Below, piece by piece: positions 41,569 to 64,000 of a DNA stretch of 64,000 nucleotides. The notes under the pieces were generated by a model. The model had not been told where the DNA came from. It did no database searches and was given only the letters and a program-made list of their open reading frames with translations. The stretch is taken from positions 22,835 through 86,834 of IMG/VR virus record IMGVR_UViG_3300044999_000022; one strand, written 5' to 3'. Within the stretch, counting starts at the first letter, position 1. Each line of letters begins with the position of its first letter. The translations under genes and the position numbers were made by a program. The DNA comes from a virus.

Positions 41569-41577
41569 TACCACAAG

Positions 41578-49266: not shown

Positions 49267-49562
49267 CTTGCCTCCTCCCACCGCCGCGCAGGGGCCGCAT
49301 TGCACCTGGGCTTCCCTGCGCGACGGTGGCCTGACGCATCGATGCCTGGCCACATGCTACGGTAAGCGGCCGATATTGTAGGGCCTTTGCCACGGCAACC
49401 AACCGCGGAGGTATGACAACCCCATGACGGGCCTCCTTTCTCTCGGTGAAGGGCCTTGGCGCCGCCTCTGGGCGCCGCTCTCCCTTCAGGAGACTGCTCG
49501 AGCCATGCTGGTAGGCGCTTCCAGGCACCTAACTCGAGCAGTCCGCTCAAGGGAGCTACCTG
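49267..49562 (-). other. Hairpin-rich intergenic segment without a clear gene
   Basis: 296 bases. Contains an 11-bp perfect inverted repeat (49492-49502 with 49533-49543) with a nested 7-bp stem, and a GGCGCC-rich hairpin near 49455-49480. An ATG at 49425 with gaaaggagg could start a 22-residue peptide. No tRNA was found. Either a structured RNA, a terminator region or a decayed gene. Confidence 0.4.
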
Positions 49563-51305: not shown

Positions 51306-51324
51306 TCCGTACCTCCTGCATGCT

Positions 51325-51361
51325 GAACCGGAGCTGGCGAGGTCTGGGCCAGCTCCGGTTC
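51325..51361 (-). terminator. Perfect 13-bp hairpin
   Basis: GAACCGGAGCTGG (51325-51337) pairs with 51349-51361; 11-base loop. It follows the 51376 gene and precedes the 54-residue gene. There is no U-run, so partial terminator or mRNA stabiliser. Confidence 0.6.
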
Positions 51362-51375
51362 GGATTCAGTTGTAA

Positions 51376-51708
51376 TTACCCGGTTGAATGCAGCGGGCGG
51401 CCCTTCCTTTCACGGGTGAGCAGCCCGGCGACCTCTTCCCGGGTCTCTGCGAGTTGCTCCGCAAGGTGTCCGATCTCGTCTCGGCACTCCTGGATCGCAG
51501 CCTCCATATCGGCGCGATCCTGCTCGGCCCAGCGGTCTTCGATTTCGACCCTGAACATGCCGCGGTCTAGCAGGTCGTCTAGAAGACGGCCTGCGCCAGA
51601 CTCGGACGCAAGCGAACGTCGGAACGTCCGGTACTGCTCCCCAGGATCGCTCCACAGAACGCGCCACCTGCGCGTAGGCCTCATTGTCTCTTGTTGCGCT
51701 GTTGCCAT
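51376..51708 (-). CDS. Helical hypothetical protein
   Basis: 110 residues, ribosome site aaggaggtgaaat. Strongly charged coiled-coil character (QDRADMEAAIQECRDEIGHL, AEQLAETREEVAGLL). Unknown function. Confidence 0.65.
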   Translation of the reverse strand: MATAQQETMRPTRRWRVLWSDPGEQYRTFRRSLASESGAGRLLDDLLDRGMFRVEIEDRWAEQDRADMEAAIQECRDEIGHLAEQLAETREEVAGLLTRERKGRPLHSTG

Positions 51709-51738
51709 ATTTCACCTCCTTGGTCGGACAAGGCCTAA

Positions 51739-51760
51739 GGCCGCCTCCTTCAAGGCGGCC
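51739..51760 (-). terminator. Hairpin after the acidic SPFMYI gene
   Basis: 8-bp GC stem (51739-51746 with 51753-51760), followed by the ribosome site of the next gene. More likely an intercistronic element than a full terminator. Confidence 0.45.
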
Positions 51761-51787
51761 TCGACCTTGACCGGCCAGCTCAGGACC

Positions 51788-52660: not shown

Positions 52661-53042
52661 GCCGTACCTCCTGTTTGGCCGCCTTTCTAGCGGCCCTGTG
52701 CCGCCGAAACCTCTTGTTCCGACAGTCTTTGCAGAGACTCTTTCGAGACCCAACCGGGGAACGATTATCGTCGTTCAACTCGACCCCACAGTCCCGACAA
52801 TGAGTCGCAAGTCCTAGAGGCAATCCGGGCCAGCGAGCTGCCCTCTGTAGCGGCGCGTCATACTCTACATGACAACCACGACATAGAGGTACATAGTTCC
52901 GCGGATCGCCTCGGTCGGTATCATGTACCCAGGCCCATTCCTGAGCCCGCCGGCCGCAACACCCGTCGCAAAGAAAGGCCGAAGCGGTGCCGCGCGCAGC
53001 ATGCACACGCTGATGCTGCCCGGCATACGACAACTCACACAT
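52653..53042 (-). CDS. HNH-like zinc protein, copy 1
   Basis: 129 residues, ribosome site aaaggagacc. FLCDGCCGRRAQEWAWVHD, then YVPLCRGCHVEYD give an HNH-like fold (His, Cys pair, His). A second zinc ribbon follows (HCRDCGVELNDDNRS, SLCKDCRNKRFRRH). The gene at 56448-56798 has the same two modules, and the N-terminus of the SNF2 helicase has related ones. Possibly a nicking or homing-type nuclease. Confidence 0.75.
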   Translation of the reverse strand: MCELSYAGQHQRVHAARGTASAFLCDGCCGRRAQEWAWVHDTDRGDPRNYVPLCRGCHVEYDAPLQRAARWPGLPLGLATHCRDCGVELNDDNRSPVGSRKSLCKDCRNKRFRRHRAARKAAKQEVRHE

Positions 53043-53085
53043 CCTTGGTCTCCTTTGCTATCGGGGTTTTTTTGCTTCTATTTTA

Positions 53086-53115
53086 ATAATATCACAGACC
53101 TCCCGTCCATTTCAA
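53086..53115 (-). promoter_or_regulatory. Promoter P9
   Basis: - strand TTGAAA (53115-53110), 18-base spacer, TATTAT (53091-53086) with TG upstream. Followed by an A-rich leader into the HNH-like gene. Confidence 0.75.
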
Positions 53116-53187
53116 GATGCCACTCGGATAAATTTCTAGGCCTCGCCAAGATCTTTTCCGACGAACGTCCATCTGGAACGCTCGCAC

Positions 53188-53215
53188 CCGAAGGCGAGCT
53201 ACCGCCCGCCTTCGG
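53188..53215 (-). terminator. 12-bp hairpin before P9
   Basis: CCGAAGGCGAGC (53188-53199) pairs with 53204-53215 (one wobble), four-base loop, just after the stop of the 53226 gene and before P9. Confidence 0.65.
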
Positions 53216-53225
53216 ATGCCAGCCT

Positions 53226-53666
53226 TCAGAAGCTGGTTTGGCCTTGCCACTCGATGAGAAACTCCGCCTGGTTGATGAAGGCCCAGACGATCGAGAGGCC
53301 GTAGTACGTGAAGGCGAGGTCCTCCGACGCGTGGTACGGGCCGTCGGGGGACTCGGAGACCAGCTCCTCGCCAGTCATCTCGACATGGACGCCCTTATAG
53401 GTCAGGCCGCGAGCCTCCCAACTCTGGACCCTATCCACGGCTCCCCTGAGCGAGACGTCTGAAAGCCTGGCCTGTGCTACCAGTCCAGCGAGCCCCTCCT
53501 CACGCAGGATGACGGGCCCGAGGCTTTCCTGCAGGAGGTCCTCCTCCGGCTTGTTCGTGATCAACATCCAGCCGGTCAGGTCCATCTTGACCTGATACAC
53601 ATCCGGACGCGCAAGATACGGCCTCGTAACGAAGTCCGCCTGCGGGCCCGGCTTCTTGACTGGCAC
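53226..53666 (-). CDS. Hypothetical protein
   Basis: 146 residues from the GTG at 53666 with gggaagggga upstream. KMDLTGWMLITNKPEEDLLQE, ARLSDVSLRGAVDRVQSW, DLAFTYYGLSIVWAFINQA. Preceded by a two-hairpin element (53667-53745). No family recognised. Confidence 0.65.
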   Translation of the reverse strand: MPVKKPGPQADFVTRPYLARPDVYQVKMDLTGWMLITNKPEEDLLQESLGPVILREEGLAGLVAQARLSDVSLRGAVDRVQSWEARGLTYKGVHVEMTGEELVSESPDGPYHASEDLAFTYYGLSIVWAFINQAEFLIEWQGQTSF

Positions 53667-53745
53667 GCCATCCCCTTCCCGAGACACCCAACTTGAGTGC
53701 TCGCCACTGGCGATTGCCTTCGTGCCAATCGCCAATGGCCAACAG
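53667..53745 (-). other. Two-hairpin intercistronic element E9
   Basis: On the - strand, TGGCGATTG pairs with CAATCGCCA around a loop containing GAAGG. A second, weaker stem (GAGCAC with GTGTCTC) follows, then the ribosome site. Same layout as the elements at 59.8-63.0 kb. Confidence 0.5.
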
Positions 53746-53907
53746 TCAGTTAGTGCTCAGAGCGACTTCCAGCGCCCCTAGCCACTCGCCGCCATCCGGG
53801 CTCCAGAAGATGGCACCGAACTCGACGGTGTAGTTACCGTGAGTCGGGCACGGCTCTCCGGTAATCTTAGGGGCCGGGATCTGTATCTCGGCCATCCTGT
53901 CCCACAT
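53746..53907 (-). CDS. 53-residue protein
   Basis: ATG overlaps the upstream stop (TGATG) with gggagcg upstream; a second ATG at 53893 is possible. EIQIPAPKITGEPCPTHGN, VEFGAIFWSPDGGEWLGALE. Small beta-rich fold; unknown function. Confidence 0.6.
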   Translation of the reverse strand: MWDRMAEIQIPAPKITGEPCPTHGNYTVEFGAIFWSPDGGEWLGALEVALSTN

Positions 53908-54068
53908 CAGAGCGCTCCCGGCTCAGGGCCCGCTACGGCGTTGATCACGAGCGCGTCGCCTTCTCGCATCTTGAGGAGTAGCGCGACTACCCGGCTGCTC
54001 ATGAGGTAGTTCTCTTGCTGCTCGTCTTCACCGGGCTTGACGATCTCGACGTTGTACCGAACGCTCAT
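53907..54068 (-). CDS. 53-residue protein
   Basis: ATG with aggagaaacgga upstream, overlapping the upstream stop. VRYNVEIVKPGEDEQQENYL, then a helix (SSRVVALLLKMREGDAL). Unknown function. Confidence 0.6.
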   Translation of the reverse strand: MSVRYNVEIVKPGEDEQQENYLMSSRVVALLLKMREGDALVINAVAGPEPGAL

Positions 54069-54280
54069 TCCGTTTCTCCTTTGACGATCAGGCCGCCCCT
54101 GCCGTCCTCACCCAGAACGCCTAGGCGTTCCAGCTCGAAGACGTGCCATAGTATGTGAAGCGTGAACTGTTCGTCAGTGAGTTCATCGAACATGGGATCG
54201 TCAAAGTTCGGGCACTCTTCCGACGGCTTGCCGCTGAACGGGCACTTTTCCAGTGCGGGTGTATACTCTAGCCCGGCCAT
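54065..54280 (-). CDS. Hypothetical protein
   Basis: 71 residues from the ATG at 54280. EKCPFSGKPSEECPNFDDP and an amphipathic helix (EQFTLHILWHVFELERLGVL). The longer ORF upstream is an overlap shadow. Unknown function. Confidence 0.6.
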   Translation of the reverse strand: MAGLEYTPALEKCPFSGKPSEECPNFDDPMFDELTDEQFTLHILWHVFELERLGVLGEDGRGGLIVKGETE

Positions 54281-54585
54281 CCGTGCTCCCGTAGTGCTTC
54301 GAAGATCGCGTCCGAGCACCTCATAGTCGACCATGTATTGGCGCCGCAGGGCGCCTCGGCGTCCTCCTTCTGGGCGTCCTCACGATCTTCATCGTACTCG
54401 TCCGAGTCCTCATCAGGACAGCTCGCGATGAAGGCGACTTCAGCCGGACCCATGCTGCTGGCATCTGCGTCCGCGGTGAGACACTCCGCGATGTACTTCC
54501 AGTCATCGACTCGGAGTGTTACGCTCATGAGGTCCTGATCGGACAGGCCCTCAGGGTCGGTGCGGATGTAGTGAGAAGTGCTCAT
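54268..54585 (-). CDS. Acidic hypothetical protein
   Basis: 105 residues from the ATG at 54585 overlapping the upstream stop (ATGA). LMSVTLRVDDWKYIAECLTA, an acidic middle (DEDSDEYDEDRED), then a Cys/helix end. Its VTLRVDDWKYIAECL segment recalls VALTLPRSEWEALLRAL in the next gene upstream, suggesting relatedness. Confidence 0.6.
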   Translation of the reverse strand: MSTSHYIRTDPEGLSDQDLMSVTLRVDDWKYIAECLTADADASSMGPAEVAFIASCPDEDSDEYDEDREDAQKEDAEAPCGANTWSTMRCSDAIFEALREHGWPG

Positions 54586-54725
54586 GAGTTGTCCTCCATT
54601 TGAGCCTTGAGGTGTCTGTGCGCCTCTCGCGCATATAGGGGCATCCCCACCTTGTCTAGCGCCCGTAGGAGTGCTTCCCACTCGCTACGCGGGAGCGTTA
54701 GCGCCACGAACTCTTCAGGATTCAT
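54582..54725 (-). CDS. 47-residue protein
   Basis: ATG with ggaggccggcaa upstream. EEFVALTLPRSEWEALLRAL, KVGMPLYAREAHRHLKAQ: two helices. Below usual gene-calling size but well spaced and coupled. Similar N-terminal pattern to the following gene. Confidence 0.6.
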   Translation of the reverse strand: MNPEEFVALTLPRSEWEALLRALDKVGMPLYAREAHRHLKAQMEDNS

Positions 54726-55245
54726 TTGCCGGCCTCCATTCCGGATACTTGTCGCCGGGGCTTCTCGACTTGGTCGTCTTGGAGGGATAGTTACCGTTCG
54801 GGTGCTCGCAGTTGCCGCCGACGTTCAACGTCAACCCTTCCGGCGAACGCCTGATCGGTGTCGGTCGAGCATCAGGCGTGTAGATTGCCTTGATTCCGTT
54901 TGGTGTCTGCGAGTTCACAGCCCGCATGCGCGGGGATGCCATTCGGGTAACTCGTGGCTGCCGCCGGTGTGTCGGGTTCGGCGCTCGGGACTGCTGCTTG
55001 CTGACCCGTATGAGCGTCTGCATGAACTGTTCTTTGGTCATGACCGGCCTGAACTCTGCCGGCTCTGCAGGCTTCCGAACGTAGTTGACGAACGGTGCGG
55101 ATTCTTCCGCGGTGCCTGTAGGCCTAACTGACTTCGGCCTCGAGCTCGTCGTCTTCGGTTTCGGCTGTTGCGTCGTGATCCGATCGGGTACCTTCGTCCC
55201 GTCGGACATCGCTGCGCACAGCTTCAAGAAGGTCGACTTGTCCAT
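54715..55245 (-). CDS. Basic, low-complexity protein
   Basis: 176 residues, ribosome site aggagggg. Pro/Thr/Arg-rich throughout (KPKTTSSRPKSVRPTGTA), with one helix (MTKEQFMQTLIRVSKQ). Probably disordered. Overlaps the upstream gene by 122 bases in another frame. Confidence 0.55.
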   Translation of the reverse strand: MDKSTFLKLCAAMSDGTKVPDRITTQQPKPKTTSSRPKSVRPTGTAEESAPFVNYVRKPAEPAEFRPVMTKEQFMQTLIRVSKQQSRAPNPTHRRQPRVTRMASPRMRAVNSQTPNGIKAIYTPDARPTPIRRSPEGLTLNVGGNCEHPNGNYPSKTTKSRSPGDKYPEWRPANES

Positions 55246-55504
55246 TCTCCCCTCCTATGAACCGTCCGAAAACCATTACGGTTCCATCAACGGTTCGTGT
55301 CTTGGACTCGAAGTGTCCTACGGGCCTGAAGGCCCTGATGACTCCGGTCCGGATCTGCTGCTGCAATGCAGTTGCAGACTGAACCCTCGCCTTCGGGAAC
55401 TCCTTGACAACTCCCCACTTGCCGGGGTTGTCCCTGAGCTCGTCGGCCTCTTCACTGTAGGTCGACTTCGACGCCCTCACGGCGTCGGGATTGCTCCATT
55501 TCAC
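55124..55504 (-). CDS. Hypothetical protein with 122-base overlap
   Basis: 126 residues from the GTG at 55504 (gaggaggcagc upstream). The N-terminal half is charged; GVIRAFRPVGHFESKTRT and GTVMVFGRFIGGENGQVDLL form a beta part; the acidic end overlaps the next gene. Unknown function. Confidence 0.55.
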   Translation of the reverse strand: MKWSNPDAVRASKSTYSEEADELRDNPGKWGVVKEFPKARVQSATALQQQIRTGVIRAFRPVGHFESKTRTVDGTVMVFGRFIGGENGQVDLLEAVRSDVRRDEGTRSDHDATAETEDDELEAEVS

Positions 55505-55754
55505 GTGCTGCCTCCTCTCTTTCATCGTTCAGTTGCTTGATCGCCTCCAGTAGCCGTCTGGCCCTGGCGGGATCCTTAGGCACGTACGGTAGCACTGACA
55601 AACCGTTCTTGATGGGCCTATACTTCTTAGCCCTCCCGGCATGGTCATACGAGTAGCTACCCTGCGGAGGAAGGACAATGCGCCCAGTACCCGTTGTGCT
55701 CCTATGAGTCGGACGCCTTGCTGACGCCTGACCCTCTGGTGGATCCTCATCCAC
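55452..55754 (-). CDS. YVPKDP-family small protein, copy 1
   Basis: 100 residues from the GTG at 55754 (gggaggtgagcca). A Pro/Arg-rich start leads to LPYVPKDPARARRLLEAIKQLNDE and a charged helix. The motif recurs at 58118-58459 (GVYIPKDPERAEHLLEALWLV) and at the right edge (VSYLPRDAGRRERLLAAIRS). Each copy is close to a class-B promoter cassette. Function unknown. Confidence 0.7.
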   Translation of the reverse strand: MDEDPPEGQASARRPTHRSTTGTGRIVLPPQGSYSYDHAGRAKKYRPIKNGLSVLPYVPKDPARARRLLEAIKQLNDEREEAAREMEQSRRREGVEVDLQ

Positions 55755-55830
55755 TGGCTCACCTCCCTTCCAATCCGACCTCGTCCTGTCGAGGCCGAAC
55801 TGCACCGGAGATGTTTACTTGTTTCTTTTT

Positions 55831-55861
55831 ATTATATCATAAGGCCTTGAGGACCTGACAA
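55831..55861 (-). promoter_or_regulatory. Promoter cassette P10 (class B)
   Basis: - strand TTGTCA (55861-55856), 19-base spacer, TGATATAAT (TATAAT at 55836-55831). Upstream AT-rich TTATCTATTATTCAT and downstream A-rich leader match the cassettes at 58.06, 62.2 and 63.7 kb. Confidence 0.8.
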
Positions 55862-55889
55862 TAGGCCACCCCCAATCTTTATCTATTAT

Positions 55890-56108
55890 TCATGTTCGGG
55901 GACTGACTTCACTGAAACCGAGCTCGACTTGCATGATCAGGCGCTTTCCCGCTGGAAGGCCGCTAACTCCTACGATCGAAGGGTGATCAGCGTATTCCAG
56001 CGCTGCACCTAGCACGTTACGTAGGTCGCCGTCAGACAGTGCGAGTAGACGCTCGAGGAGCGCATTGGCTTCCGTGCGCCCTGTACGGTCGAGTGGGTTG
56101 TTAGTCAT
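55890..56108 (-). CDS. Hypothetical protein
   Basis: 72 residues from the ATG at 56108 overlapping the upstream stop. Helical LLERLLALSDGDLRNVLGAA then a beta end (KRLIMQVELGFSEV). Last gene before P10. The longer ORF start is rejected as a shadow. Confidence 0.6.
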   Translation of the reverse strand: MTNNPLDRTGRTEANALLERLLALSDGDLRNVLGAALEYADHPSIVGVSGLPAGKRLIMQVELGFSEVSPRT

Positions 56109-56382
56109 TACGGGCGGCCCGCTCAAGGGCGTCCCAGAACGCATCGGCCGCCTTGATCTCGTCGTCGCCGGTGTACAGCTGTATGTATGGCCGCATGGGC
56201 TCGCCGATCCCGACCTCGAAAGTTCCATCCGCCATCGTGAGGTGCCCGACGACCTCCTCACCGAGACCGAACGACGCGAACGTACCCTCCTTGATGCCGT
56301 GGAAGTTAACCTGTGCCTTCCACTCCATACCGACGTCATCGTGGCCGACGTCGGTGGTGATCTCGAAGTCACGCAGTTGCAT
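56101..56382 (-). CDS. Hypothetical protein
   Basis: 93 residues, ribosome site aggagggc. DFEITTDVGHDDVGMEWKA, VVGHLTMADGTFEVGIGEPM, an acidic/helical C-terminus (DEIKAADAFWDALERAA). Beta-rich; unknown function. Confidence 0.65.
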   Translation of the reverse strand: MQLRDFEITTDVGHDDVGMEWKAQVNFHGIKEGTFASFGLGEEVVGHLTMADGTFEVGIGEPMRPYIQLYTGDDEIKAADAFWDALERAARND

Positions 56383-56447
56383 GACAGCCCTCCTTGGATA
56401 TATAGGATTCGATATCGCTAGCTAGCAGCAACCGCCGCTAGCCCGAT

Positions 56448-56798
56448 CTATGAATGGCGGTCCTGCCACCACTTCCTCCAAAGGGCCGCAGCGCATTCCT
56501 TGCATGAATGCTTACGGCCCTTCGAGCGATTCTCGTCCGTAAGTTCTACGTCACAGTGCTTGCAGGTAGCCCAAACGGTGCGGCCTGGCCGATCATAATG
56601 GCGGTGACATGCTACACACAATGGGACATAGCTGCCCATGTCTCGTGGGTCGCGATCGTGTACCCATGCCCATTCCTTAGCCCGCCCGCCACAGCCGCCT
56701 TCGCACAAGAAACGGCCTGCAAAGCCGCGCTTGTCCCTCAAGCTGGAATGAAACCGCGCATGCTCTTTAGTTCCTGCCTTCAGCGGCTCGTACTGCAT
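56448..56798 (-). CDS. HNH-like zinc protein, copy 2
   Basis: 116 residues, ribosome site tagggag. FLCEGGCGGRAKEWAWVHD, YVPLCVACHRHYD, then CKHCDVELTDENRS and HSCKECAAALWRKW. Same two-module layout as 52653-53042. The His and Cys positions of the HNH-like core are conserved between the copies. Confidence 0.75.
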   Translation of the reverse strand: MQYEPLKAGTKEHARFHSSLRDKRGFAGRFLCEGGCGGRAKEWAWVHDRDPRDMGSYVPLCVACHRHYDRPGRTVWATCKHCDVELTDENRSKGRKHSCKECAAALWRKWWQDRHS

Positions 56799-56826
56799 AA
56801 AACTCCCTACTTTTGACAGGGCGGCT

Positions 56827-56907
56827 CTACGTGAGAAGCCCGGTCAGAATTACCAGCACTGCTGCCGCGATGAGGACGCCTATGGCTTCACGGGCTGTCA
56901 GCATCAT
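56827..56907 (-). CDS. 26-residue single-TM peptide
   Basis: ATG with gggaggtgcg upstream. MMLTAREAIGVLIAAAVLVI and LTGLLT: essentially one TM helix. Too short for most gene callers; well-formed ribosome site. Confidence 0.6.
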   Translation of the reverse strand: MMLTAREAIGVLIAAAVLVILTGLLT

Positions 56908-56925
56908 CGCACCTCCCTTCCGATC

Positions 56926-56945
56926 CAGCCTCTCGCGAGAGGCTG
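56926..56945 (-). repeat. 20-base perfect palindrome
   Basis: CAGCCTCTCGCGAGAGGCTG, between two small genes. Could be an operator or an intercistronic hairpin without loop. Confidence 0.5.
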
Positions 56946-56961
56946 AACCGCACTGGAAGTG

Positions 56962-57210
56962 CTACGCGTCGGGGTCGACGCCGTGATGTCTGGCCATCAT
57001 CTTGATGAACTCGACGTTCCAGTTCTGCCGCTGCCCGCGCTCGGTGCAGGATGCGAGCATCTGCGCGAGGAACAGGTACCGCAGCTGGATGTCGTCCGGC
57101 GTGAACTGGCCGGTGAACTTGTCGAGTACCTCTGCCGAGGCCTGATTGGCGAGGAGTGTGATGAACTCCTCGTTGTCCTTCAGTACACCTGACGGGCTGT
57201 TGTCAGTCAT
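56962..57210 (-). CDS. Helical hypothetical protein
   Basis: 82 residues from the ATG at 57210. DNEEFITLLANQASAEVLDK, IQLRYLFLAQMLASCTERGQ, NVEFIKMMARHHGVDPDA. Unknown family. Confidence 0.65.
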   Translation of the reverse strand: MTDNSPSGVLKDNEEFITLLANQASAEVLDKFTGQFTPDDIQLRYLFLAQMLASCTERGQRQNWNVEFIKMMARHHGVDPDA

Positions 57211-57529
57211 TGGTCTTCTCGTCCTCGTCATAGTAATCGAACCTGCCGGACGCCAGCAGGCGCTTGCACGCGTGTTGGAGCCTGAGCTCGGCGCGGTCGC
57301 GCGAGTCGTAGTCCTCCTCGTTGGAGGGCATCATGTTCGCGAAGGCCTGGTCGCCGATCATGAGCGCCCTTGCGAGGAACTCCTGGAACGGCTTGAACAT
57401 GTCCCGGAGTGCCTCGCTGTCGTTGAACTCGTCCTGAACGCGGTACCTCAGGGCCTCGAGGATCTCCTCGACGTCCCTGCGGTCCTCGCCGGTGAAGTCC
57501 TTACTGGTGTCGACCGGCTGAGCGGTCAT
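57203..57529 (-). CDS. Hypothetical acidic protein
   Basis: 108 residues, ribosome site gaaggagcacc. EDRRDVEEILEALRYRVQDE, ELRLQHACKRLLASGRFDYY and an acidic end. Unknown function. Confidence 0.65.
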   Translation of the reverse strand: MTAQPVDTSKDFTGEDRRDVEEILEALRYRVQDEFNDSEALRDMFKPFQEFLARALMIGDQAFANMMPSNEEDYDSRDRAELRLQHACKRLLASGRFDYYDEDEKTND

Positions 57530-57794
57530 GGAGGTGCTCCTTCAGTGTGGGGGTGAAGTCGGACTGCTTCTGCGTACTCGCGCGCCCGTCTTCGCCGACG
57601 TTGTGAACCTTGTCGGGCTCGTACCGCGTAACCATACCGCCGAACTCGTCGGTCATAGTCATCGCGACAACTCGCATGCCCGAGCCTCGCTCGGCACCCT
57701 CGTCGACCATCTCCTCCACGGCCATACCAAAGTGCCCGAGCTGATCGAAATCAGCACTGACTTGCTCGATTTCGATTACGAGCTTCGTAGCCAC
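57501..57794 (-). CDS. Hypothetical protein
   Basis: 97 residues from a GTG with aaaggagccaca upstream. A beta-helix-beta start (TKLVIEIEQVSADFDQLGHF, MRVVAMTMTDEF), then a disordered end that overlaps the next gene. Confidence 0.6.
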   Translation of the reverse strand: MATKLVIEIEQVSADFDQLGHFGMAVEEMVDEGAERGSGMRVVAMTMTDEFGGMVTRYEPDKVHNVGEDGRASTQKQSDFTPTLKEHLHDRSAGRHQ

Positions 57795-57833
57795 TGTGGC
57801 TCCTTTCTGAAACGCTCCTACGAGCGCTCCGAG

Positions 57834-58007
57834 CTACGCATGTTGTGCGTAGCTCGCAACGTTCGTATGATTGTCTCCCGCCTGATGCAGTCCATCGTGC
57901 AAGGTGTCCAAGTACTCATCGCTATGCTCGTCCAGCCCGCCATCGAAGGTCGGATGCAAGTTGTGAATGCCTGTTAGGTGTGCAACCTTTTCTGCGTGCG
58001 CGCTCAT
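57834..58007 (-). CDS. 57-residue His-rich protein, first gene after P11
   Basis: ATG with acggagacgagc upstream. AEKVAHLTGIHNLHPTFDGG, LDEHSDEYLDTLHDGLHQAG. Nine His residues. It directly follows the P11 leader. A 10-bp hairpin (57831-57855) overlaps its last codons and may end or attenuate the transcript. Unknown function. Confidence 0.65.
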   Translation of the reverse strand: MSAHAEKVAHLTGIHNLHPTFDGGLDEHSDEYLDTLHDGLHQAGDNHTNVASYAQHA

Positions 58008-58062
58008 GCTCGTCTCCGTTCGTTGTGCCTATGCACGTTATTTTTATTCTTCTTTTATTTTT

Positions 58063-58093
58063 ATTATATCACAAGTCCCCTAGGGACTAACAA
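58063..58093 (-). promoter_or_regulatory. Promoter cassette P11 (class B)
   Basis: - strand TTGTTA (58093-58088), 19-base spacer, TGATATAAT (58068-58063). The spacer contains the inverted repeat AGTCCC-C-TAGGGACT. The leader TAATAAAAATAAAAGAAGAA and upstream ATGAATAATATATGAAT are shared with P12 and P13. Confidence 0.85.
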
Positions 58094-58117
58094 TAGGCCG
58101 CTTCGATTATTCATATA

Positions 58118-58459
58118 TTATTCATGGCCTTCCCAATCAGCGTCGAACTCCTGCGGGTTGACTTCTTTTATGACAGGCCAGCAGTCGCGCAGGACAGGCT
58201 GTCCGGCCTCTTCCCTATAACCCCGATCAACGTTTACAAGCCAGAGGGCTTCCAATAGGTGCTCAGCTCTCTCAGGGTCCTTCGGTATGTATACCCCTTC
58301 AGGCATGCCCACACGCACCACACGTGGACGCTTGCCGTGATAGTCGTCAAACTGCACTTGCTGCGGCGCTTCAATACCCTGTTCCGACCTACGAGGCATC
58401 GCACGCCCTTTTTTGAGATGCTTAGCCTGCGTCTGCCCCTTGCCGTACTTCTTAGTCAT
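58118..58459 (-). CDS. YVPKDP-family small protein, copy 2
   Basis: 113 residues. A Lys/Arg-rich start (MTKKYGKGQTQAKHLKKG), VVRVGMPEGVYIPKDPERAE, HLLEALWLVNVDRGY, and an acidic end. Shares the IPKDPxRAxxLLEAL core with 55452-55754 and the right-edge gene. Confidence 0.7.
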   Translation of the reverse strand: MTKKYGKGQTQAKHLKKGRAMPRRSEQGIEAPQQVQFDDYHGKRPRVVRVGMPEGVYIPKDPERAEHLLEALWLVNVDRGYREEAGQPVLRDCWPVIKEVNPQEFDADWEGHE

Positions 58460-58471
58460 TGCGACCTCCGT

Positions 58472-58497
58472 GTGGGGGCTGCTTTCGCAGCCCCCAC
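58472..58497 (-). terminator. 11-bp hairpin with GAAA tetraloop
   Basis: GTGGGGGCTGC (58472-58482) pairs perfectly with 58487-58497; on the - strand RNA the loop is GAAA. It lies between two genes and next to a ribosome site; probably a stabilising or insulating intercistronic hairpin. Confidence 0.65.
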
Positions 58498-58502
58498 GAT
58501 CG

Positions 58503-58790
58503 TCACTTACCGGTCGGCGCTAGCTCGTTGGTGTAATGCTGTGGGTCGTAGACGGTCTCGTCTACGAGGGCTGCCTCCGCGAGCTTCCGCTCATCGGCGT
58601 GTGGGAATTGCTCGTTACCCATGTCCGCCTGATACGTCAGCAAGATGGCAACGACCTCCAGGTTGACTTCCTTCGGGAACTCCTCAAGGAAGTCCGCGTC
58701 GCGAAGACACGCTACGAGTTTGTGCCATTCAGGCGAGCCTGGTATGGGTACGTCGACTTCATACTCCCTAAGGACGCGTAGCTTAGGCAT
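58503..58790 (-). CDS. Hypothetical protein
   Basis: 95 residues, ribosome site aaggacg. LRVLREYEVDVPIPGSPEWH, VNLEVVAILLTYQADMGNEQ. Overlaps the upstream gene by eight bases. Unknown. Confidence 0.6.
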   Translation of the reverse strand: MPKLRVLREYEVDVPIPGSPEWHKLVACLRDADFLEEFPKEVNLEVVAILLTYQADMGNEQFPHADERKLAEAALVDETVYDPQHYTNELAPTGK

Positions 58791-59067
58791 TATCGTCCTT
58801 GTCAGTTCCTAGGAGATGGTGAATGAAGGCAGCGGCCTCGATGCCTTCCTCGTCGATAGTGCCGTCATCGTATAGCGGGTACCGAACGCTAGTCCAGTAC
58901 CCTCGCGTGTCGTCGTATATCGTGTTCTTGGTCTCGGCCGTCTTGATCCCGTCGCTGAAGACGAGGTCTACAACGAGCGGACGGTCCGGAGGGTACTCCA
59001 GCCTGACGACGACTCGTTCGTCGAAGTACTTCCACGGCAGTGGGATCTGCTCGACAGGTAGTTCCAT
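58783..59067 (-). CDS. Hypothetical beta-rich protein
   Basis: 94 residues from the ATG at 59067, overlapping the upstream stop (TGATG). LPWKYFDERVVVRLEYPPDR, LVVDLVFSDGIKTAET, GIEAAAFIHHLL. Unknown. Confidence 0.6.
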   Translation of the reverse strand: MELPVEQIPLPWKYFDERVVVRLEYPPDRPLVVDLVFSDGIKTAETKNTIYDDTRGYWTSVRYPLYDDGTIDEEGIEAAAFIHHLLGTDKDDNA

Positions 59068-59318
59068 CACTTGTTCCGTAGCTGGAAGTCCGCGATGTCG
59101 CGGACCTCCTGATCGGTGAGCGGCATGTCATAGATGGTCCGCAGTAGGATGCAGGCCTTCTCGGCGACCGCAGGGAGGACGTTATACGCGAAGAAGTTCA
59201 TCACGATATGCCAGTCCTCCCTACTGGAGGGCTTGCGCCCGCCCAGCTCGAGTTCCACCGCGGCGGCCAGCAGTTCGTTCGGCGACCGCAGGGTCGGTTC
59301 GTTACTCACGGTTACCAC
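59067..59318 (-). CDS. Helical hypothetical protein
   Basis: 83 residues from a GTG (a second GTG at 59309 is possible). SPNELLAAAVELELGGRKPS, VMNFFAYNVLPAVAEKACIL, LTDQEVRDIADFQ. Unknown. Confidence 0.6.
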   Translation of the reverse strand: MVTVSNEPTLRSPNELLAAAVELELGGRKPSSREDWHIVMNFFAYNVLPAVAEKACILLRTIYDMPLTDQEVRDIADFQLRNK

Positions 59319-59731
59319 TCATCTCCGTCATCGGTGTCCATCATGATGACCGACCATCCGCGCTGCTCGAACAGCTCCTTGACGGCCTCTGCGCGCTCGT
59401 CTACGAGCTTGCCCCACCTCTCGTACCAGGCATCGACCTCCGCTTGGTTCAGCATGGCGCCGACGCCTGCCTGATACGGAACGAGGGTCTCGATGAATGT
59501 CTTGTCATGCTCGCCCGTACCCTGCGTCCATTCGGACCGCATCATAGTCTCGTACTCCGCATAGACCTCCTCGGGGTACGGCGCCATTGTAAAGCCGAAC
59601 AGTACCCTGAGCAGGGCACGCTGCTGAACTTCTCCAGCGGCCTCGCAGTCCTCGGCGTGCGTACCGTCGGTACGACCACACTCGGTGCATGAGTACTTCT
59701 GACCGTCTGCGGTCCAACTGTAGTGCGCCAT
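59312..59731 (-). CDS. Hypothetical protein with N-terminal zinc-like motif
   Basis: 139 residues from the ATG at 59731 (gggagag). YSCTECGRTDGTHAEDCEAA is a probable zinc site. The rest is helical (EEVYAEYETMMRSEW, VDAWYERWGKLVDERAEAVK). Preceded by two-hairpin element E5. Confidence 0.65.
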   Translation of the reverse strand: MAHYSWTADGQKYSCTECGRTDGTHAEDCEAAGEVQQRALLRVLFGFTMAPYPEEVYAEYETMMRSEWTQGTGEHDKTFIETLVPYQAGVGAMLNQAEVDAWYERWGKLVDERAEAVKELFEQRGWSVIMMDTDDGDEW

Positions 59732-59808
59732 CACTCTCCCTTCCCGAACGCCTACCGTTAGGCGAACGTGGCGCGGTGCGGTCGCATTCCGCACCTCACC
59801 ATGATCGT
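59732..59808 (-). other. Two-hairpin intercistronic element E5
   Basis: Stem 1 GGTGCGG/CCGCACC (59775-59781 with 59789-59795) with loop AATGCGA, then stem 2 GCCTA/TAGGC (59750-59754 with 59759-59763), then the ribosome site. It shares the sequence CATGGTGAGG with E3/E4-type elements. Confidence 0.65.
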
Positions 59809-60069
59809 CTAGCAGCCTGAGACCGAGCCACCCTGCGACTGACAGTACGCAGGCGTGCTACTACTTGTAGAGGTGCCTAGCGTGCTGGCCACCTTGGAGA
59901 CCTGCACCCCAATGATGATCCCGCAGATGACGCTGAACAAGACACCGATGCCGATCACGATCGCGATGAACTTGGTCGCTGCGGCGGTCGTCCGCGCGTT
60001 GTTAAGCATTGCTATCTGCCACTCGGCCTCCGTCATCGGAGGGCGCGCGTAAGGCTGGTTCATAGTCAT
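59809..60069 (-). CDS. Single-TM protein with extracellular Cys end
   Basis: 86 residues from the ATG at 60069 (gggaaggc). A polar start (YARPPMTEAEWQIAMLNN), a TM helix ~35-60 (FIAIVIGIGVLFSVICGIII), and a Ser/Thr-rich end with two Cys (AYCQSQGGSVSGC). Confidence 0.7.
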   Translation of the reverse strand: MTMNQPYARPPMTEAEWQIAMLNNARTTAAATKFIAIVIGIGVLFSVICGIIIGVQVSKVASTLGTSTSSSTPAYCQSQGGSVSGC

Positions 60070-60147
60070 TATTGCCTTCCCGGATGTCGCTCCTTGCAAA
60101 CATCCTGGAATGCGCCCCCTTCGCGAAGGCGCAAACCAGGCGGTTCG
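60070..60147 (-). other. Two-hairpin intercistronic element E6
   Basis: Stem 1 around GCGCC-TTCGCGAAGG-GGGCGC and stem 2 GGATGT/ACATCC (loop ttgcaaggagcg), then the ribosome site. Same order as E1-E5, different stem sequences. Confidence 0.5.
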
Positions 60148-60594
60148 TCAGCGCGCGCGGTGCGCGTTCACGATGGCGGTTATGTCTCCGCCCTCGGGGT
60201 GCTCCACTAGAAACGCGCTGATCGCATACATAGCCTCATGGGCTGACTCGTGACGCTCGCCTGTGAAGCCGGCACCGACCCAGACGGTCCCGCCTCCCGT
60301 TGAGGTAACGATGCGGTTGGACAAGGTATTGTAGACATAAACCATACCGCCGCCTTGGAGCATGTGATCGGAGTGGCCTGCTGTCTTGGCCTCCTCGCGA
60401 TTCGCTACCGCGGACTCGATGATATAGAACCTGCACGCAGGATCGTATAGCTCCTGATGTGCCTTGGCAGGCTTCGTTGGAACGATCGTGAACCTGCGGT
60501 CGACCGGCGTGGCCTTCCTACGTGTCTCGCGTTCGTCTGCCTCACGCAGTTCCGCTTCGACCAGTTCGGCCCGCAGTTGTGCTGCGGTCTTCAT
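60148..60594 (-). CDS. Hypothetical protein
   Basis: 148 residues from the ATG at 60594 (aggaggcatc). A helical charged start (LRAELVEAELREADERE), then beta-rich RFYIIESAVANREEAK, GGMVYVYNTLSNRIV, GTVWVGAGFTGERHES. Unknown. Confidence 0.65.
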   Translation of the reverse strand: MKTAAQLRAELVEAELREADERETRRKATPVDRRFTIVPTKPAKAHQELYDPACRFYIIESAVANREEAKTAGHSDHMLQGGGMVYVYNTLSNRIVTSTGGGTVWVGAGFTGERHESAHEAMYAISAFLVEHPEGGDITAIVNAHRAR

Positions 60595-60671
60595 GATGCC
60601 TCCTTGCCTAGTGGCCACGGAATGCTGTTGAACCGCAGGTCGTTTATCACGACCCATACCTCTTTGGGCAT
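60591..60671 (-). CDS. 26-residue peptide
   Basis: ATG with aggaggcagc upstream; the TGA overlaps the next ATG. MPKEVWVVINDLRFNSIPWP and LGKEAS. Its codons include the ribosome site of the next gene, so it may be a coupler as well as a product. Confidence 0.55.
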   Translation of the reverse strand: MPKEVWVVINDLRFNSIPWPLGKEAS

Positions 60672-60682
60672 GCTGCCTCCTA

Positions 60683-60973
60683 CTAGAAGTCGATACCGAA
60701 CAGGCCCGCGAGGTACCGCGATCCTGTTATTGCTTCAGCGTGGTCGCCGCCGTCATGGACGTCGTCAGCCATGTTCGAGATGAATGCGCGGAACGAAGAC
60801 TCGAAGGTCATGTGAGTGAAGTCCTCGTCATAGCGGTACTCATCAACGTAAGCGACCATGAACGCGGCGTACTCGTCCATCGTAATACGAAGGACGATCT
60901 GCATCGCTGTGGCCTTTTGTTCCTGAAGGTCCGCCATAGCGGCCTCTAGGAGCTTACGTGCTTCTAGTGACAC
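60683..60973 (-). CDS. Helical hypothetical protein
   Basis: 96 residues from the GTG at 60973 (aaaggaggagca). EARKLLEAAMADLQEQKATA, RITMDEYAAFMVAYVDEYRY, SSFRAFISNMADDVHDGGDH. Preceded by element E4. Confidence 0.65.
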   Translation of the reverse strand: MSLEARKLLEAAMADLQEQKATAMQIVLRITMDEYAAFMVAYVDEYRYDEDFTHMTFESSFRAFISNMADDVHDGGDHAEAITGSRYLAGLFGIDF

Positions 60974-60988
60974 TGCTCCTCCTTTCCT

Positions 60989-61061
60989 GCACGCTACAAG
61001 CTGTAGTCGTACATGGCGTCGGGGTAGACACCTTCGCATGCCTACCCCGCACCATGAGCGG
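60989..61061 (-). repeat. Two-hairpin intercistronic element E4, twin of E3
   Basis: 73 bases, the same length as E3 at 61424-61496. Stem 1 GGGGTAG/CTACCCC (61021-61027 with 61042-61048), stem 2 CTACA/TGTAG (60994-60998 with 61002-61006). Loop and flanks (GCGAAGGTG, CCGCTCATGGTG, GCCATGTACGA) are identical to E3, while stem 1 differs by compensating changes. Confidence 0.75.
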
Positions 61062-61409
61062 CTAGGCGGACTTGTTGGTCACGGTGATCGAGTACGTCCC
61101 CTTCTTGGTCCAGTGCTGCAGGACCTCATGGGACCACCAGTGCGGGTAGGCCAGCTCGTTTTTGTACAGCACCTCATCGCTGTACGCGCCGGTCGAGTAC
61201 GCCGTAGTGCGGTGCTCCCACTCCCGGTAGGCGTGGCCGCAGGCGTGCTTGGTCAGCCACTCCTGCGAGACCGTCCCGGTCGAGGCGGTGCTGTGCTCAT
61301 ACTTGTGCGTCGTGGTGCACGTTGCCGCACTCGCCGGCCCCGCTCCCGCAAGAGCAACGCCCCCCGCGAGGATCGCGGTTGCCGTCAGGCCCGCTAGGGT
61401 CTTACGCAT
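61062..61409 (-). CDS. Small secreted protein
   Basis: 115 residues from the ATG at 61409. A Sec signal peptide (MRKTLAGLTATAILAGGVAL to AGPASAA) is followed by a ~85-residue mature part with two Cys (ATCTTTHKYE, HACGHAYREW) that may form a disulfide, and Trp-rich AYPHWWSHEVLQHW. Exported by the host cell; role unknown. Confidence 0.75.
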   Translation of the reverse strand: MRKTLAGLTATAILAGGVALAGAGPASAATCTTTHKYEHSTASTGTVSQEWLTKHACGHAYREWEHRTTAYSTGAYSDEVLYKNELAYPHWWSHEVLQHWTKKGTYSITVTNKSA

Positions 61410-61423
61410 GCTGTTCCTTTCTT

Positions 61424-61496
61424 GCACGCTACAAGGTGTAGTCGTACATGGCGTGGGGACGATCACCTTCGCCTGACCGTCCCCCACCATGAGCGG
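61424..61496 (-). repeat. Two-hairpin intercistronic element E3
   Basis: 73 bases. Stem 1 GGGGACG/CGTCCCC (61455-61461 with 61478-61484), stem 2 CTACA/TGTAG (61429-61433 with 61437-61441). It sits between the stop of the upstream gene and the ribosome site of the secreted protein. See E4 for covariation. Confidence 0.75.
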
Positions 61497-62159
61497 TTAC
61501 TTCTTGTTGGCGTCCGCGGTCGCCTTGGCGGCCTTGATGCGGAGCTGCCTGAGGTTGTGCTCGTTCATCCAGTTGACGAACGCCTCGATGTCCGTGATCT
61601 CCATACGGCCATCGGCGGCGTGTCCGACGGGGAACTTGCCCTTGCCCGCCTGGATGTACATGAACGGGCTGTTGACCGTCCCCAGACCCGCGTCCACGCG
61701 TGCCTGGTTGAAGATCTTCGTCGCCTGGTACGGCGTGAGGACGAACGGCTTGCGGTGCTTGCCGCCCTTGACCTTGCCCTGCGGGGTCTCTTCGGGCTGT
61801 CCGGCCGTAAGGGCCTTCAGGGCCTCGTCGAAGAGGCCACCCTCGCCGGTCTCGTCCTCGAGGGCCTCTTCGGCCTCGTCCGTCGTGGACTCCTCCGGCA
61901 GGGTCTCGTCGACGATTTCGCCCTCGAGCACCTCAGCGGTGTCCGCGAGTACCTCGTCGATGACCTCGGCCGCCGTCGGCGTCCACAGCTCCATGCCGGT
62001 TCCCACTACGGTGGTGGTCTTCGGCGCCTGCGGGCGGGTCCTGCGGTTACGTGCTGGCATTGTCTTGCCTTTCTGTTGTGACGCCCCTTGCGGACGCCCT
62101 GCAACGTACATCGCTAGTGTACGCTCTAGGTCGTCCGCAATGGTTGTCTGCCCTGACAT
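61497..62159 (-). CDS. SPFMYI-family protein, copy 2
   Basis: 220 residues from the ATG at 62159 (aaaggaggtgag). An internal ATG at 62060 with gaaaggcaag aligns with the start of copy 1, so a 187-residue form is possible. Acidic middle, then KHRKPFVLTPYQATKIFNQA, VNSPFMYIQAGKGKFPV, ITDIEAFVNWMNEHNL. Same core as 51788-52660. First gene after P12. Confidence 0.7.
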   Translation of the reverse strand: MSGQTTIADDLERTLAMYVAGRPQGASQQKGKTMPARNRRTRPQAPKTTTVVGTGMELWTPTAAEVIDEVLADTAEVLEGEIVDETLPEESTTDEAEEALEDETGEGGLFDEALKALTAGQPEETPQGKVKGGKHRKPFVLTPYQATKIFNQARVDAGLGTVNSPFMYIQAGKGKFPVGHAADGRMEITDIEAFVNWMNEHNLRQLRIKAAKATADANKK

Positions 62160-62220
62160 CGTTTCTCACCTCCTTTCGTTACGCCCCTGGGGACGTTATT
62201 TTTATTCTTCTTTTATTTTT

Positions 62221-62251
62221 ATTATATCACATGTACCGCGGGGCCTATCAA
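62221..62251 (-). promoter_or_regulatory. Promoter cassette P12 (class B)
   Basis: - strand TTGATA (62251-62246), 19-base spacer, TGATATAAT (62226-62221). The 30-base A-rich leader is nearly identical to P11, and an upstream ATGAATAAAATATGAATAAT element is shared. Confidence 0.85.
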
Positions 62252-62284
62252 TAGGGCACCCTGATTATTCATATTTTATTCATC

Positions 62285-62361
62285 TACACCCTTCTCGGTA
62301 CGTTTCTTACAAACGTCCGCGGCGAGGTACGGCCTTCGCGCACCGTACCTCACCGTGCACG
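62285..62361 (-). other. Two-hairpin intercistronic element E2
   Basis: Stem 1 GAGGTACGG/CCGTACCTC (62324-62332 with 62343-62351), stem 2 ACGTTT/AAACGT (62300-62305 with 62311-62316). It lies after the 62362 gene and just upstream of cassette P12, so here it may serve as the terminator of the previous unit. Confidence 0.65.
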
Positions 62362-62496
62362 CTAGTCGGTCGCGTCTATCGACCACCCATCAGGAGTGGC
62401 CGGAAGGCCGATTGCCTGCTCTTCACTGACGACCTCGAACGTCAGCACCTCGCGTCCGTGCTCGTCCTTCATCGTGACGATCTGAGGGTACGCCAT
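62362..62496 (-). CDS. 44-residue acidic protein
   Basis: ATG with ctaggaggactggt upstream. MAYPQIVTMKDEHGREVLTF, EVVSEEQAIGLPATPDGWSI. Small beta-strand/acidic protein; unknown. Confidence 0.6.
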   Translation of the reverse strand: MAYPQIVTMKDEHGREVLTFEVVSEEQAIGLPATPDGWSIDATD

Positions 62497-62506
62497 ACCA
62501 GTCCTC

Positions 62507-62605
62507 CTAGAGCATTGCTTCGATTGACGGCCACTGCAGGATGGTCAGGAGCATGTCCCAACCGAAGTGAACTACGGGGATGATGAACGGGATGATTGGC
62601 CACAT
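62507..62605 (-). CDS. 32-residue hydrophobic peptide
   Basis: MWPIIPFIIPVVHFGWDMLL and TILQWPSIEAML, essentially one membrane segment. Starts just after the DYREFY gene; the ribosome site is weak, so it may depend on coupling. Confidence 0.5.
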   Translation of the reverse strand: MWPIIPFIIPVVHFGWDMLLTILQWPSIEAML

Positions 62606-62606
62606 G

Positions 62607-62927
62607 TCAGTGCCTCGTGTAGAACTCGCGATAGTCGACCGTGAGGTCGCCCTTGGAGGTCAGGTGTACCGAGATGCGGAGCTCGTCCTCACCGAACTCG
62701 TACGCGATCCACTTGCGGTTACCGTACTTGTCGTTCGCGCGGTTCGTCCACGACAACTTACGGAACAGCTCCTCAGGAGTGTCACACACCTCCCAAAGTG
62801 CCTCGAGTTCGGTCATCGCGTTCTTCACGAACCGGAGGTATGCCGCATCCATCTGGATGCGGAACCCCTTCGGACTCGCGTATAGGACCTTGTTTGAAGA
62901 GGTCCCAGAAGGGTTTGTACCTTGCAT
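62607..62927 (-). CDS. DYREFY-family small protein, copy 2
   Basis: 106 residues, ribosome site aaaggaacg. YLRFVKNAMTELEALWEVCD, RKWIAYEFGEDELRISVHLT, GDLTVDYREFYTRH. Paralogue of 50634-50972, same domain order without the acidic N-terminus. Preceded by element E1. Confidence 0.7.
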   Translation of the reverse strand: MQGTNPSGTSSNKVLYASPKGFRIQMDAAYLRFVKNAMTELEALWEVCDTPEELFRKLSWTNRANDKYGNRKWIAYEFGEDELRISVHLTSKGDLTVDYREFYTRH

Positions 62928-62941
62928 GGTACGTTCCTTTC

Positions 62942-63011
62942 TTTTCGAACGTTACTCTTGTAGTAACGGTCGCGGCGAAGGTACGGTCGCATCCGCACCT
63001 CACCGTAATCG
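62942..63011 (-). other. Two-hairpin intercistronic element E1
   Basis: Stem 1 GGTGCGG/CCGTACC (62993-62999 with 62980-62986, one wobble), stem 2 CGTTACT/AGTAACG (62950-62956 with 62962-62968), then the ribosome site of the DYREFY gene. Confidence 0.65.
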
Positions 63012-63341
63012 TTACTTCCAGACGTACGCGTGCATCTCCCGGAAGTCCTTGATGAATGTCCCTGCGCACCACTTGTCGGCGACCCTCATGGTCAGGATGT
63101 GATGTTCGCCTCCGCCGCCCACTTCAGGTTCTCCTTCCGATCGTTCCATGTTCGCGAACGACTTCCTGATTTCGTCCTCCGAGTGTTCATGGAGGTCTGT
63201 GAACGCGTTGTCCGCGTATCCCGTGATGACTTCATGGACGTTCTGTTCCAATATGTCATCAGGCTCGTCCGCAACCCCGAGTTCGTTCTCGATTGCGTCC
63301 TTCGTGACCTCAATGAGGTCATTCAAGGTCAGATCCTTCAT
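63012..63341 (-). CDS. Helical hypothetical protein
   Basis: 109 residues from the ATG at 63341 (aaaggaacgg). LNDLIEVTKDAIENELGVAD, NVHEVITGYADNAFTDLHEH, then a beta end (HHILTMRVADKWCAGTFIKD). Unknown. Confidence 0.65.
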   Translation of the reverse strand: MKDLTLNDLIEVTKDAIENELGVADEPDDILEQNVHEVITGYADNAFTDLHEHSEDEIRKSFANMERSEGEPEVGGGGEHHILTMRVADKWCAGTFIKDFREMHAYVWK

Positions 63342-63354
63342 ATCCGTTCCTTTC

Positions 63355-63603
63355 TTATAGGTCACACCCACACGATCCGTTCACACTGCGGTACTCTCTG
63401 CAGGTCGTACATAGGTTCGACTTCGCGGTACTGAACCCGCCGGGCAGTTTCAACATAGTGGCCTTCTCGATCATGTCGTCACTCGGCATGAACCCTCCCG
63501 CGTCACACCCGCATCTTTCGTACGCGAGGTACTGTGCCGGTGTGTACATCCTCTTACGTGCCGCGTCACTCTTTTGTTGTATCGAACTCTTTCCCCTAGG
63601 CAC
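63355..63603 (-). CDS. Small Cys-rich protein, first gene after P13
   Basis: 82 residues from the GTG at 63603 (gaggaggtgactata); a GTG nine bases upstream is closer to the ribosome site. A Lys/Arg/Tyr-rich start (KSDAARKRMYTPAQYLAYE), then RCGCDAGG, CTTCREY and SCGCDL, six Cys that suggest zinc binding. Confidence 0.65.
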   Translation of the reverse strand: MPRGKSSIQQKSDAARKRMYTPAQYLAYERCGCDAGGFMPSDDMIEKATMLKLPGGFSTAKSNLCTTCREYRSVNGSCGCDL

Positions 63604-63671
63604 TATAGTCACCTCCTCTCGTCGCCGTACATCGTCCCGATGTACTATATTTTTATTTTTCTTTTATTTTT

Positions 63672-63702
63672 ATTATATCATACGTCCCTAGTGTCCTATC
63701 AA
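63672..63702 (-). promoter_or_regulatory. Promoter cassette P13 (class B)
   Basis: - strand TTGATA (63702-63697), 19-base spacer, TGATATAAT (63677-63672), A-rich leader, and an upstream ATGAATAATATATAAATAT element. Fourth copy of the class-B cassette. Confidence 0.85.
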
Positions 63703-63743
63703 TAGGGCACCTCGAATATTTATATATTATTCATGCAGGGCAT

Positions 63744-63887
63744 TTAGTGAACGGCCGCCCCGATCCCCGCGATGCACAGCGCGAGTACGAGCAGCGATAG
63801 GAGTACGACCAGGCACCCCGCACACCCTCCGGTGCATCCCTTAGAGGTTCCGGTTGTCTGCCCTGAGGTATTCTTGTACGTCCTCAT
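63744..63887 (-). CDS. 47-residue membrane protein with CxGGCxGC
   Basis: ATG with gaaaggaaaacgaac upstream. A polar start, GCTGGCAGC (three Cys), then a TM helix (LVVLLSLLVLALCIAGIGAA). Below usual gene-calling limits. It could anchor at the host membrane; unknown role. Confidence 0.65.
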   Translation of the reverse strand: MRTYKNTSGQTTGTSKGCTGGCAGCLVVLLSLLVLALCIAGIGAAVH

Positions 63888-63901
63888 GTTCGTTTTCCTT
63901 T

Positions 63902-64000
63902 CTATCGTGACTCATTGATGGACCGGATGGCCGCTAGGAGACGTTCCCGTCGTCCCGCGTCCCTAGGGAGGTAGGACACTAGCGGTAGTCCATTCCTCTT
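63902..64000 (-). CDS. YVPKDP-family protein, 5' end outside window
   Basis: Only the last 32 codons plus stop are visible. KRNGLPLVSYLPRDAGRRER then LLAAIRSINESR matches the C-terminal core of the genes at 55452 and 58118. Its promoter lies to the right of the window. Confidence 0.65.
   Translation of the reverse strand, partial: KRNGLPLVSYLPRDAGRRERLLAAIRSINESR

Follow-up and report, generated by a model that had tools for sequence, protein, structure and literature searches.

Folded gaps between genes of an uncultivated phage lineage carry RNA pairing under selection and may mark boundaries in polycistronic mRNA

The window analyzed in this study, a 64,000-nucleotide (nt) stretch of DNA, spans positions 22835-86834 of the 86,834-base virus record IMGVR_UViG_3300044999_000022 (contig G000), an uncultivated tailed-phage contig with genes for tail, polymerase, helicase and ParB-like proteins. 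Elements E1 to E6 and E9 are stop-to-start gaps between minus-strand genes as predicted by our own gene caller, and their folding was scored by comparing each gap with 200 dinucleotide shuffles. The initial annotation of the window had given them a shared layout of stop codon, hairpin 1, short linker, hairpin 2, ribosome site and start codon. All of them are such gaps and all of them fold (Table 1), and in this respect the layout holds. The exceptions are E2, which forms a single branch with 19 pairs at minimum energy and shows two hairpins solely in the centroid fold, indicating competing folds, and E5, which forms the hairpin part of a 202-nt gap (62160-62361) and is followed by a 4-codon open reading frame and a promoter motif, with no called gene start. 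There is in effect no linker between the first stem (P1) and the second (P2). The hairpin-1 loop, described as often GCGAAGG, has exactly this sequence in four of the seven elements (E2-E5), while E9 has ACGAAGG and E1 and E6 just TGCGA. In E6, the stop codon and the bases after it (TAACG) can pair with a P2 arm when the stop codon is included in the fold, which in principle would allow a ribosome positioned there to change the structure.

Table 1. Hairpin features in the gaps of contig G000 (window positions unless marked; z, fold z-score; bp, base pairs)
Feature	Position	Strand	z	Structure
E1	59732..59808	-	-2.41	P1 59769-59801 (12 bp), P2 59745-59768 (8 bp), linker 0 nt, then ribosome site; folds, family member
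E2	60070..60147	-	-3.47	Central stem 60111-60133; P2 ~60082-60105 in centroid fold only
E3	60974..61061	-	-5.32	P1 61013-61055 (18 bp), P2 60989-61012 (10 bp), linker 0 nt; family member
E4	61410..61496	-	-4.41	P1 61448-61490 (17 bp), P2 61424-61447 (10 bp), linker 0 nt; family member
E5	62281..62361	-	-4.76	P1 62321-62354 (13 bp), P2 62296-62319 (9 bp), linker 1 nt; family member
E6	62928..63011	-	-4.69	P1 62973-63005 (13 bp), P2 62946-62972 (10 bp), linker 0 nt; family member
E9	53667..53745	-	-6.13	Strong P1 53699-53743, P2 53686-53698, linker 0 nt; loop ACGAAGG
Single long hairpin in gap	51709..51787	-		24 pairs; folds
Single hairpin in gap	51306..51375	-		14 pairs; folds
Single strong hairpin in 43-nt gap	58460..58502	-		Fold
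Second-class hairpin	49486..49550	-		UUGAGC...CCUGAAG core, G-G mismatch; then another hairpin and ribosome site
Second-class hairpin	G000 5365-5482 (in L007)	-		Found by scan

Five of the elements (E1, E3, E4, E5 and E6) constitute one dispersed family that can be aligned from the stop codon onward, with the consensus order TAR, CG, YAYGGTG, a variable stem, a GCGA-containing loop, the return stem and CGCCRYG. E9 is not alignable to this family, and both E2 and E9 were kept out of the alignment (A7) because they aligned poorly. All 60 of the 60 P1 cells in A7 pair, with two-sided changes at 5 of the 12 pairs, and the P1 covariation score of 0.467 was above that of every one of the 500 shuffles and every slid control. 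The count of further pair types in P1 was not above the shuffles, 391 of 500 of which reached the same value. P2 showed two-sided changes at 5/5 inner pairs among the five elements, although its arms pair by construction because they were taken from the folds themselves. E3 and E4 are both 73 bases long when counted from the base after the stop codon to the end of the second hairpin, and the compensatory change that had been reported between their first stems (GGGGACG/CGTCCCC in one, GGGGTAG/CTACCCC in the other) is correct; pairs further in also differ between the two with pairing kept.

The strand on which the constraint acts was determined in eight genomes using stems that were found by a strand-neutral rule with Watson-Crick pairs alone being scored. 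Among the mismatches tolerated in gap stems, as read on the mRNA strand, G-T outnumbered A-C by 37 to 10 (p 1e-4), while the same count in coding hairpins showed no such asymmetry (80 G-T and 104 A-C). Since G-T pairs in mRNA and A-C does not, the constraint acts on the transcript. In addition, the mean gap fold z-score was lower on the sense strand in seven of the eight genomes, with G010 as the exception. Taken with the two-sided changes in P1, these data bear out the earlier proposal that RNA structure is selected: the pairing is under selection at the RNA level, and this conclusion is well supported.

Alignments of the polymerase and ParB-like proteins identified related uncultivated contigs (G001, G004, G005, G010, G011, G012 and G013) in which the gaps could be compared. 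For gaps of 45-200 nt, a range that leaves out the 202-nt gap of E5, the mean z-score in G000 was -2.01 (n=40), whereas coding windows averaged -0.46 (n=80); the difference had the same direction in the other seven genomes. For gaps of 55-115 nt, 49 of 124 same-strand gaps from seven phages folded densely; in the controls this proportion was about 5% (shuffled gaps, 140 of 2480; coding windows, 64 of 1240). These 49 gaps had one branch in 27 cases, two in 21 and three in 1. In the typical two-branch gap a longer P1 (median 13 bp) begins about 6 nt past the stop codon and a shorter P2 (median 8 bp) ends about 15 nt before the next start.

The layout is common to the relatives, while the sequence families are private to each. 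Six or seven gaps in G012 consist of a stop codon, a variable strong stem, a GGCTACC..GGTAGYC hairpin and a ribosome site. Four gaps in G011 combine an invariant stem base and a covarying stem top with a GGCC..GGCC hairpin; two-sided changes occur at 3 of 18 pairs in this family, and its covariation score of 0.241 is higher than in all 500 shuffles. Two-branch gaps are also present in G004, G010 and G013. In G011, the 3' arm of one strong gap hairpin (24183-24289, in L042, minus strand) extends into a TATAAT-like sequence, and some gap hairpins there may therefore overlap promoters. The structured gaps are a trait of the phage lineage, both more widespread and less uniform than first described.

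The proposal that the elements represent an undescribed phage RNA motif stands insofar as no Rfam family reached its threshold, but these private families are not one motif. Rfam 15 gave no match in the window at gathering score, and a search of positions 52000-64000 at E up to 5 gave three sub-threshold matches, none near the threshold. A model (R1) built from E1 and E3-E6 returned nothing with a comparable score from outside this contig. Because R1 also matches the opposite strand of four of its own elements at 20.8-33.7 bits (and of the fifth at 13.4), its other matches (G010 74298-74372, 32.3 bits; window 51702-51777, 27.2; window 58441-58509, 24.2) reflect strong GC hairpins and show no homology. 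An AT-rich promoter pattern identified five contigs, none of which matched R1. The pattern CCTCNGTTGA...TGAAAGGAGGT identified one contig only, G004, with a gap limit too short to catch further copies.

A second class of hairpin was identified by a scan of 13 records, which returned 15 places with a YUGARC...YUGAR core. Three of these (G000 9119, G011 9526 and G012 72239) were discarded by eye, and the 12 that were kept are distributed over seven phages, with copies in G004, G005, G010, G011, G012 and G013 in addition to those in Table 1. The G-G mismatch is present in 12/12 copies, and a second column pairs in 0/12. One core pair is a matched A-U or G-C in all 12, and this serves as a selection-free check since the scan did not demand it. 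The inner stem pairs in 153 of 168 cells, a value inflated by the scan's demand for at least 11 of 14 pairs, and the outer stem (69/96) was not above the best permutation (70). Of the 12 hairpins, 11 are located in called gaps between same-strand genes, shortly after the stop codon. Several copies use the outer 3' strand of the stem as ribosome site, and accessibility there is lower than when the gap is shuffled. A search of Rfam with nine loci of G000 and its relatives that contain second-class copies gave only tRNAs (three).

In terms of transcript context, the elements sit in gene runs whose remaining junctions mostly overlap or nearly touch. E4, E3, E2 and E1 are located between genes in series behind one promoter motif at 62226, at distances of approximately 0.7 to 2.5 kilobases (kb), with no copy of the motif in between, and gene order together with the promoter motifs suggests that the elements share a transcript. 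Gap lengths in the early run of G000 are split into short and long (at most 12 nt in 15 of 39 gaps, 13-59 nt in 5 and at least 60 nt in 19), the pattern predicted for junctions that are coupled in some cases and bounded in others. Junctions of the early run were classed as tight in 17 cases, hairpin in 17, hairpin-free in 4 and long in 1, the corresponding numbers for the structural run being 30, 3, 3 and 0. A promoter cassette is repeated on the minus strand at approximately 55.8, 58.07, 62.23 and 63.68 kb of the window, in the order ATGAATAAT, CCTATTG.TAG., an extended -10 TGATATAAT, an A-rich leader, a hairpin or inverted repeat and a ribosome site; its CCTATTGATAGG part is palindromic and is perhaps an operator. 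The hairpins and inverted repeats seen by reading ahead of the ribosome site in these promoter leaders fit an assignment of P2 to the start of one gene and P1 to the end of the other.

These observations can be brought together if the elements mark boundaries within polycistronic phage mRNAs, a reading to which we assign slightly less than an even chance. P1 would end the upstream unit, either by blocking 3'-to-5' decay or by acting as a site for a double-strand endonuclease, and P2 would serve the next unit as its 5' leader hairpin. Acting jointly, P1 and P2 may give the units of one transcript separate lifetimes and yields. The proposed cleavage, the protection and an influence on yield are inferences. 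A role in mRNA processing or stability, as suggested in the initial annotation, would be compatible with this reading. The recurrence of the same anatomy in the private families of other phages supports the boundary reading. Several results weigh against it. Two hairpins are not obligatory, since 27 of the 49 dense gaps have a single branch. A zero linker, which occurs in 12 of 21 two-branch gaps, is only mildly special, being found in 17 of 58 shuffled gaps and 11 of 30 coding folds; short linkers are frequent in dense control folds generally, and the zero linker was dropped as a defining trait. Conservation at orthologous junctions is also weak, and its outcome depends on the definition. Among 227 orthologue pairs, which were limited to those below 60% identity and to junctions not classed as long, a structured gap was kept after orthologous genes in 11 pairs by one definition, which is not above expectation, and by the other in 9 compared to 1.5 expected, with 6 of these 9 pairs coming from one gene family.

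The alternative that fares best is that the elements serve translational control only, with the folds shielding the next ribosome site from RNA further upstream or locking it until termination occurs at the upstream stop codon. The ribosome site is indeed less accessible than with shuffled gap bodies in the second-class hairpins and in several gaps of the G004 type (G004 3568-3632, 0.26 versus 0.45; G004 15139-15213, 0.09 versus 0.38; G005 25218-25297, 0.17 versus 0.42; G010 63270-63365, 0.21 versus 0.44). The sites of E1, E4 and E6 are more accessible than 83, 100 and 87% of shuffles, whereas E2 and E3 reach only 67 and 43%. Over the 69 structured gaps with a recognized ribosome site, accessibility was 0.44 compared to 0.43 in the shuffles (p 0.80), so that there is no overall effect and the suggested translational insulation by a freer ribosome site is not borne out. 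Pairing between the upstream gene and the downstream start was higher rather than lower (11.0 versus 8.2 in shuffles, p 1.6e-5). We consider translational control as the only function to be doubtful.

More doubtful still is the possibility that we are dealing with dispersed repeats, carried along with gene cassettes and providing homology for gene exchange, whose RNA structure is tolerated or secondary. E3 and E4 resemble each other over the whole stretch between stop codon and ribosome site while their flanking genes are unrelated, every phage has its own family, and structured gaps turn over between orthologues, all of which would be consistent with such spread. However, exchange needs sequence identity, and here the sequence changes while the pairing stays; the strand asymmetry also reflects a constraint at the RNA level.

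Transcription termination or attenuation between genes is unlikely. GC-rich hairpins directly after stop codons would suit a terminator, and for some bacteria terminators lacking a U run have been proposed. The elements, however, lack the U-rich tract that follows the stem of an intrinsic terminator, and E1-E6 and E9 are absent from the minus-strand terminator-like sites returned by a scan that does find a canonical one at 34513-34543. Moreover, four elements follow one another downstream of a single promoter motif, so that any that terminated efficiently would shut off the genes beyond it. Compensated changes can stem from a single template-switch event, but an origin as DNA palindromes from template switching or as protein sites, without RNA selection, is very improbable, being contradicted by the mismatch asymmetry that coding hairpins lack and by the stronger folding of the gaps on the sense strand. 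Equally improbable is a role as antitermination RNAs akin to put of phage HK022, which likewise comprises two adjacent stem-loops of approximately 70 nt, as in E1 and E3-E6, but occurs once per early promoter, near it, and needs particular bases (PMC9378689), whereas here several copies lie between genes deep in the run and stem sequences drift freely. Of the mechanisms that remain, the boundary reading is the best supported, at a likelihood somewhat under one half.

The systems closest in kind are the extended start-associated sequences (ESAS) of cluster K mycobacteriophages, the nearest among phage elements, and selective RNA processing. Phage T7 has proven RNase III cleavage sites, which are hairpins between the genes of a polycistronic mRNA, and the elements resemble them as hairpins between genes of one probable transcript. 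The T-even PeSL are small dispersed promoter stem-loop cassettes between accessory phage genes; in contrast to these, a promoter motif adjoins E5 only and the other elements have none. ESAS and the related start-associated sequences (SAS) comprise many inverted repeats of unknown function directly upstream of the starts of non-structural genes; their consensus varies by subcluster, and each combines a 13-bp block with one inverted repeat whose 17-bp arms are conserved (PMC3203893). Apart from E5, the elements have the same position, and here too the consensus differs, although between phages rather than subclusters. Unlike ESAS, the E gaps lack on reading the 13-bp block GGGATAGGAGCCC at the start site, and they usually contain two hairpins whose arms drift with pairing kept. 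The Clostridium cip-cel operon also has intergenic stem-loops at gene 3' ends, where processing is proposed to set unequal transcript levels (PMC4423207), and it provides a precedent for the boundary reading. The location behind a gene inside an operon is shared, but the stem-loops there belong to a bacterium and occur singly close to processing sites, and the transcript ends and effects were measured. The 17-bp repeats of cluster O mycobacteriophages are many inverted repeats, part of them intergenic and approximately one third inside genes; their arms are invariant and the repeats resemble protein sites on DNA, unlike the elements described here (PMC4351075). No description of intercistronic phage hairpins of this kind was found in the open-licence literature, which leaves most subscription journals outside.

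Comparison of the window with 50,697 named phage records gave no DNA match in either megablast or distant blastn, and neither scanning viral contigs for the helicase nor searching with the E3/E4 flank pattern turned up a close relative of the contig. Protein matches in named phages were remote, all below 60% identity (polymerase, helicase, ParB-like and a 392-residue protein), and a 531-residue frame at 122-1717 had none. Two scans of bacterial genomes for a host found no relative. The gene between E3 and E4 (61062-61409, minus strand) encodes a small protein with, by reading, a signal-peptide-like start; its orthologue in G010 (40% identity) also precedes a two-branch gap, of different sequence. 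A 116-residue frame at 56448-56798 (minus strand) resembles, at 40%, residues 63-120 of the SNF2-type helicase at 38850-40706 (minus strand), a part that lies outside the helicase domains and ahead of the segment matched in G004 and G005. ARAGORN called a tRNA at 41577-41657 (minus strand) with the anticodon tta, which would decode a stop codon; this call is doubtful because the Rfam tRNA model is below threshold there.

Structured spacers between phage genes are usually dismissed as terminators or noise. Here the pairing outlasts sequence turnover, the layout is common to relatives that have no element sequence in common, and the strand test separates selection on RNA from DNA palindromes. 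It is possible, though we hold it only tentatively, that the lineage segments its polycistronic accessory mRNAs by fast-evolving, private boundary RNAs together with a slow-evolving second hairpin that all seven phages have in common at the same position behind the stop codon. If so, the second-class hairpin would represent a new family of RNAs and might be what a host or phage nuclease or RNA-binding protein recognizes; as a common hairpin it offers a concrete target for finding its recogniser. If the elements do act as boundaries, separate yields for genes on one transcript would be set by RNA shape alone.

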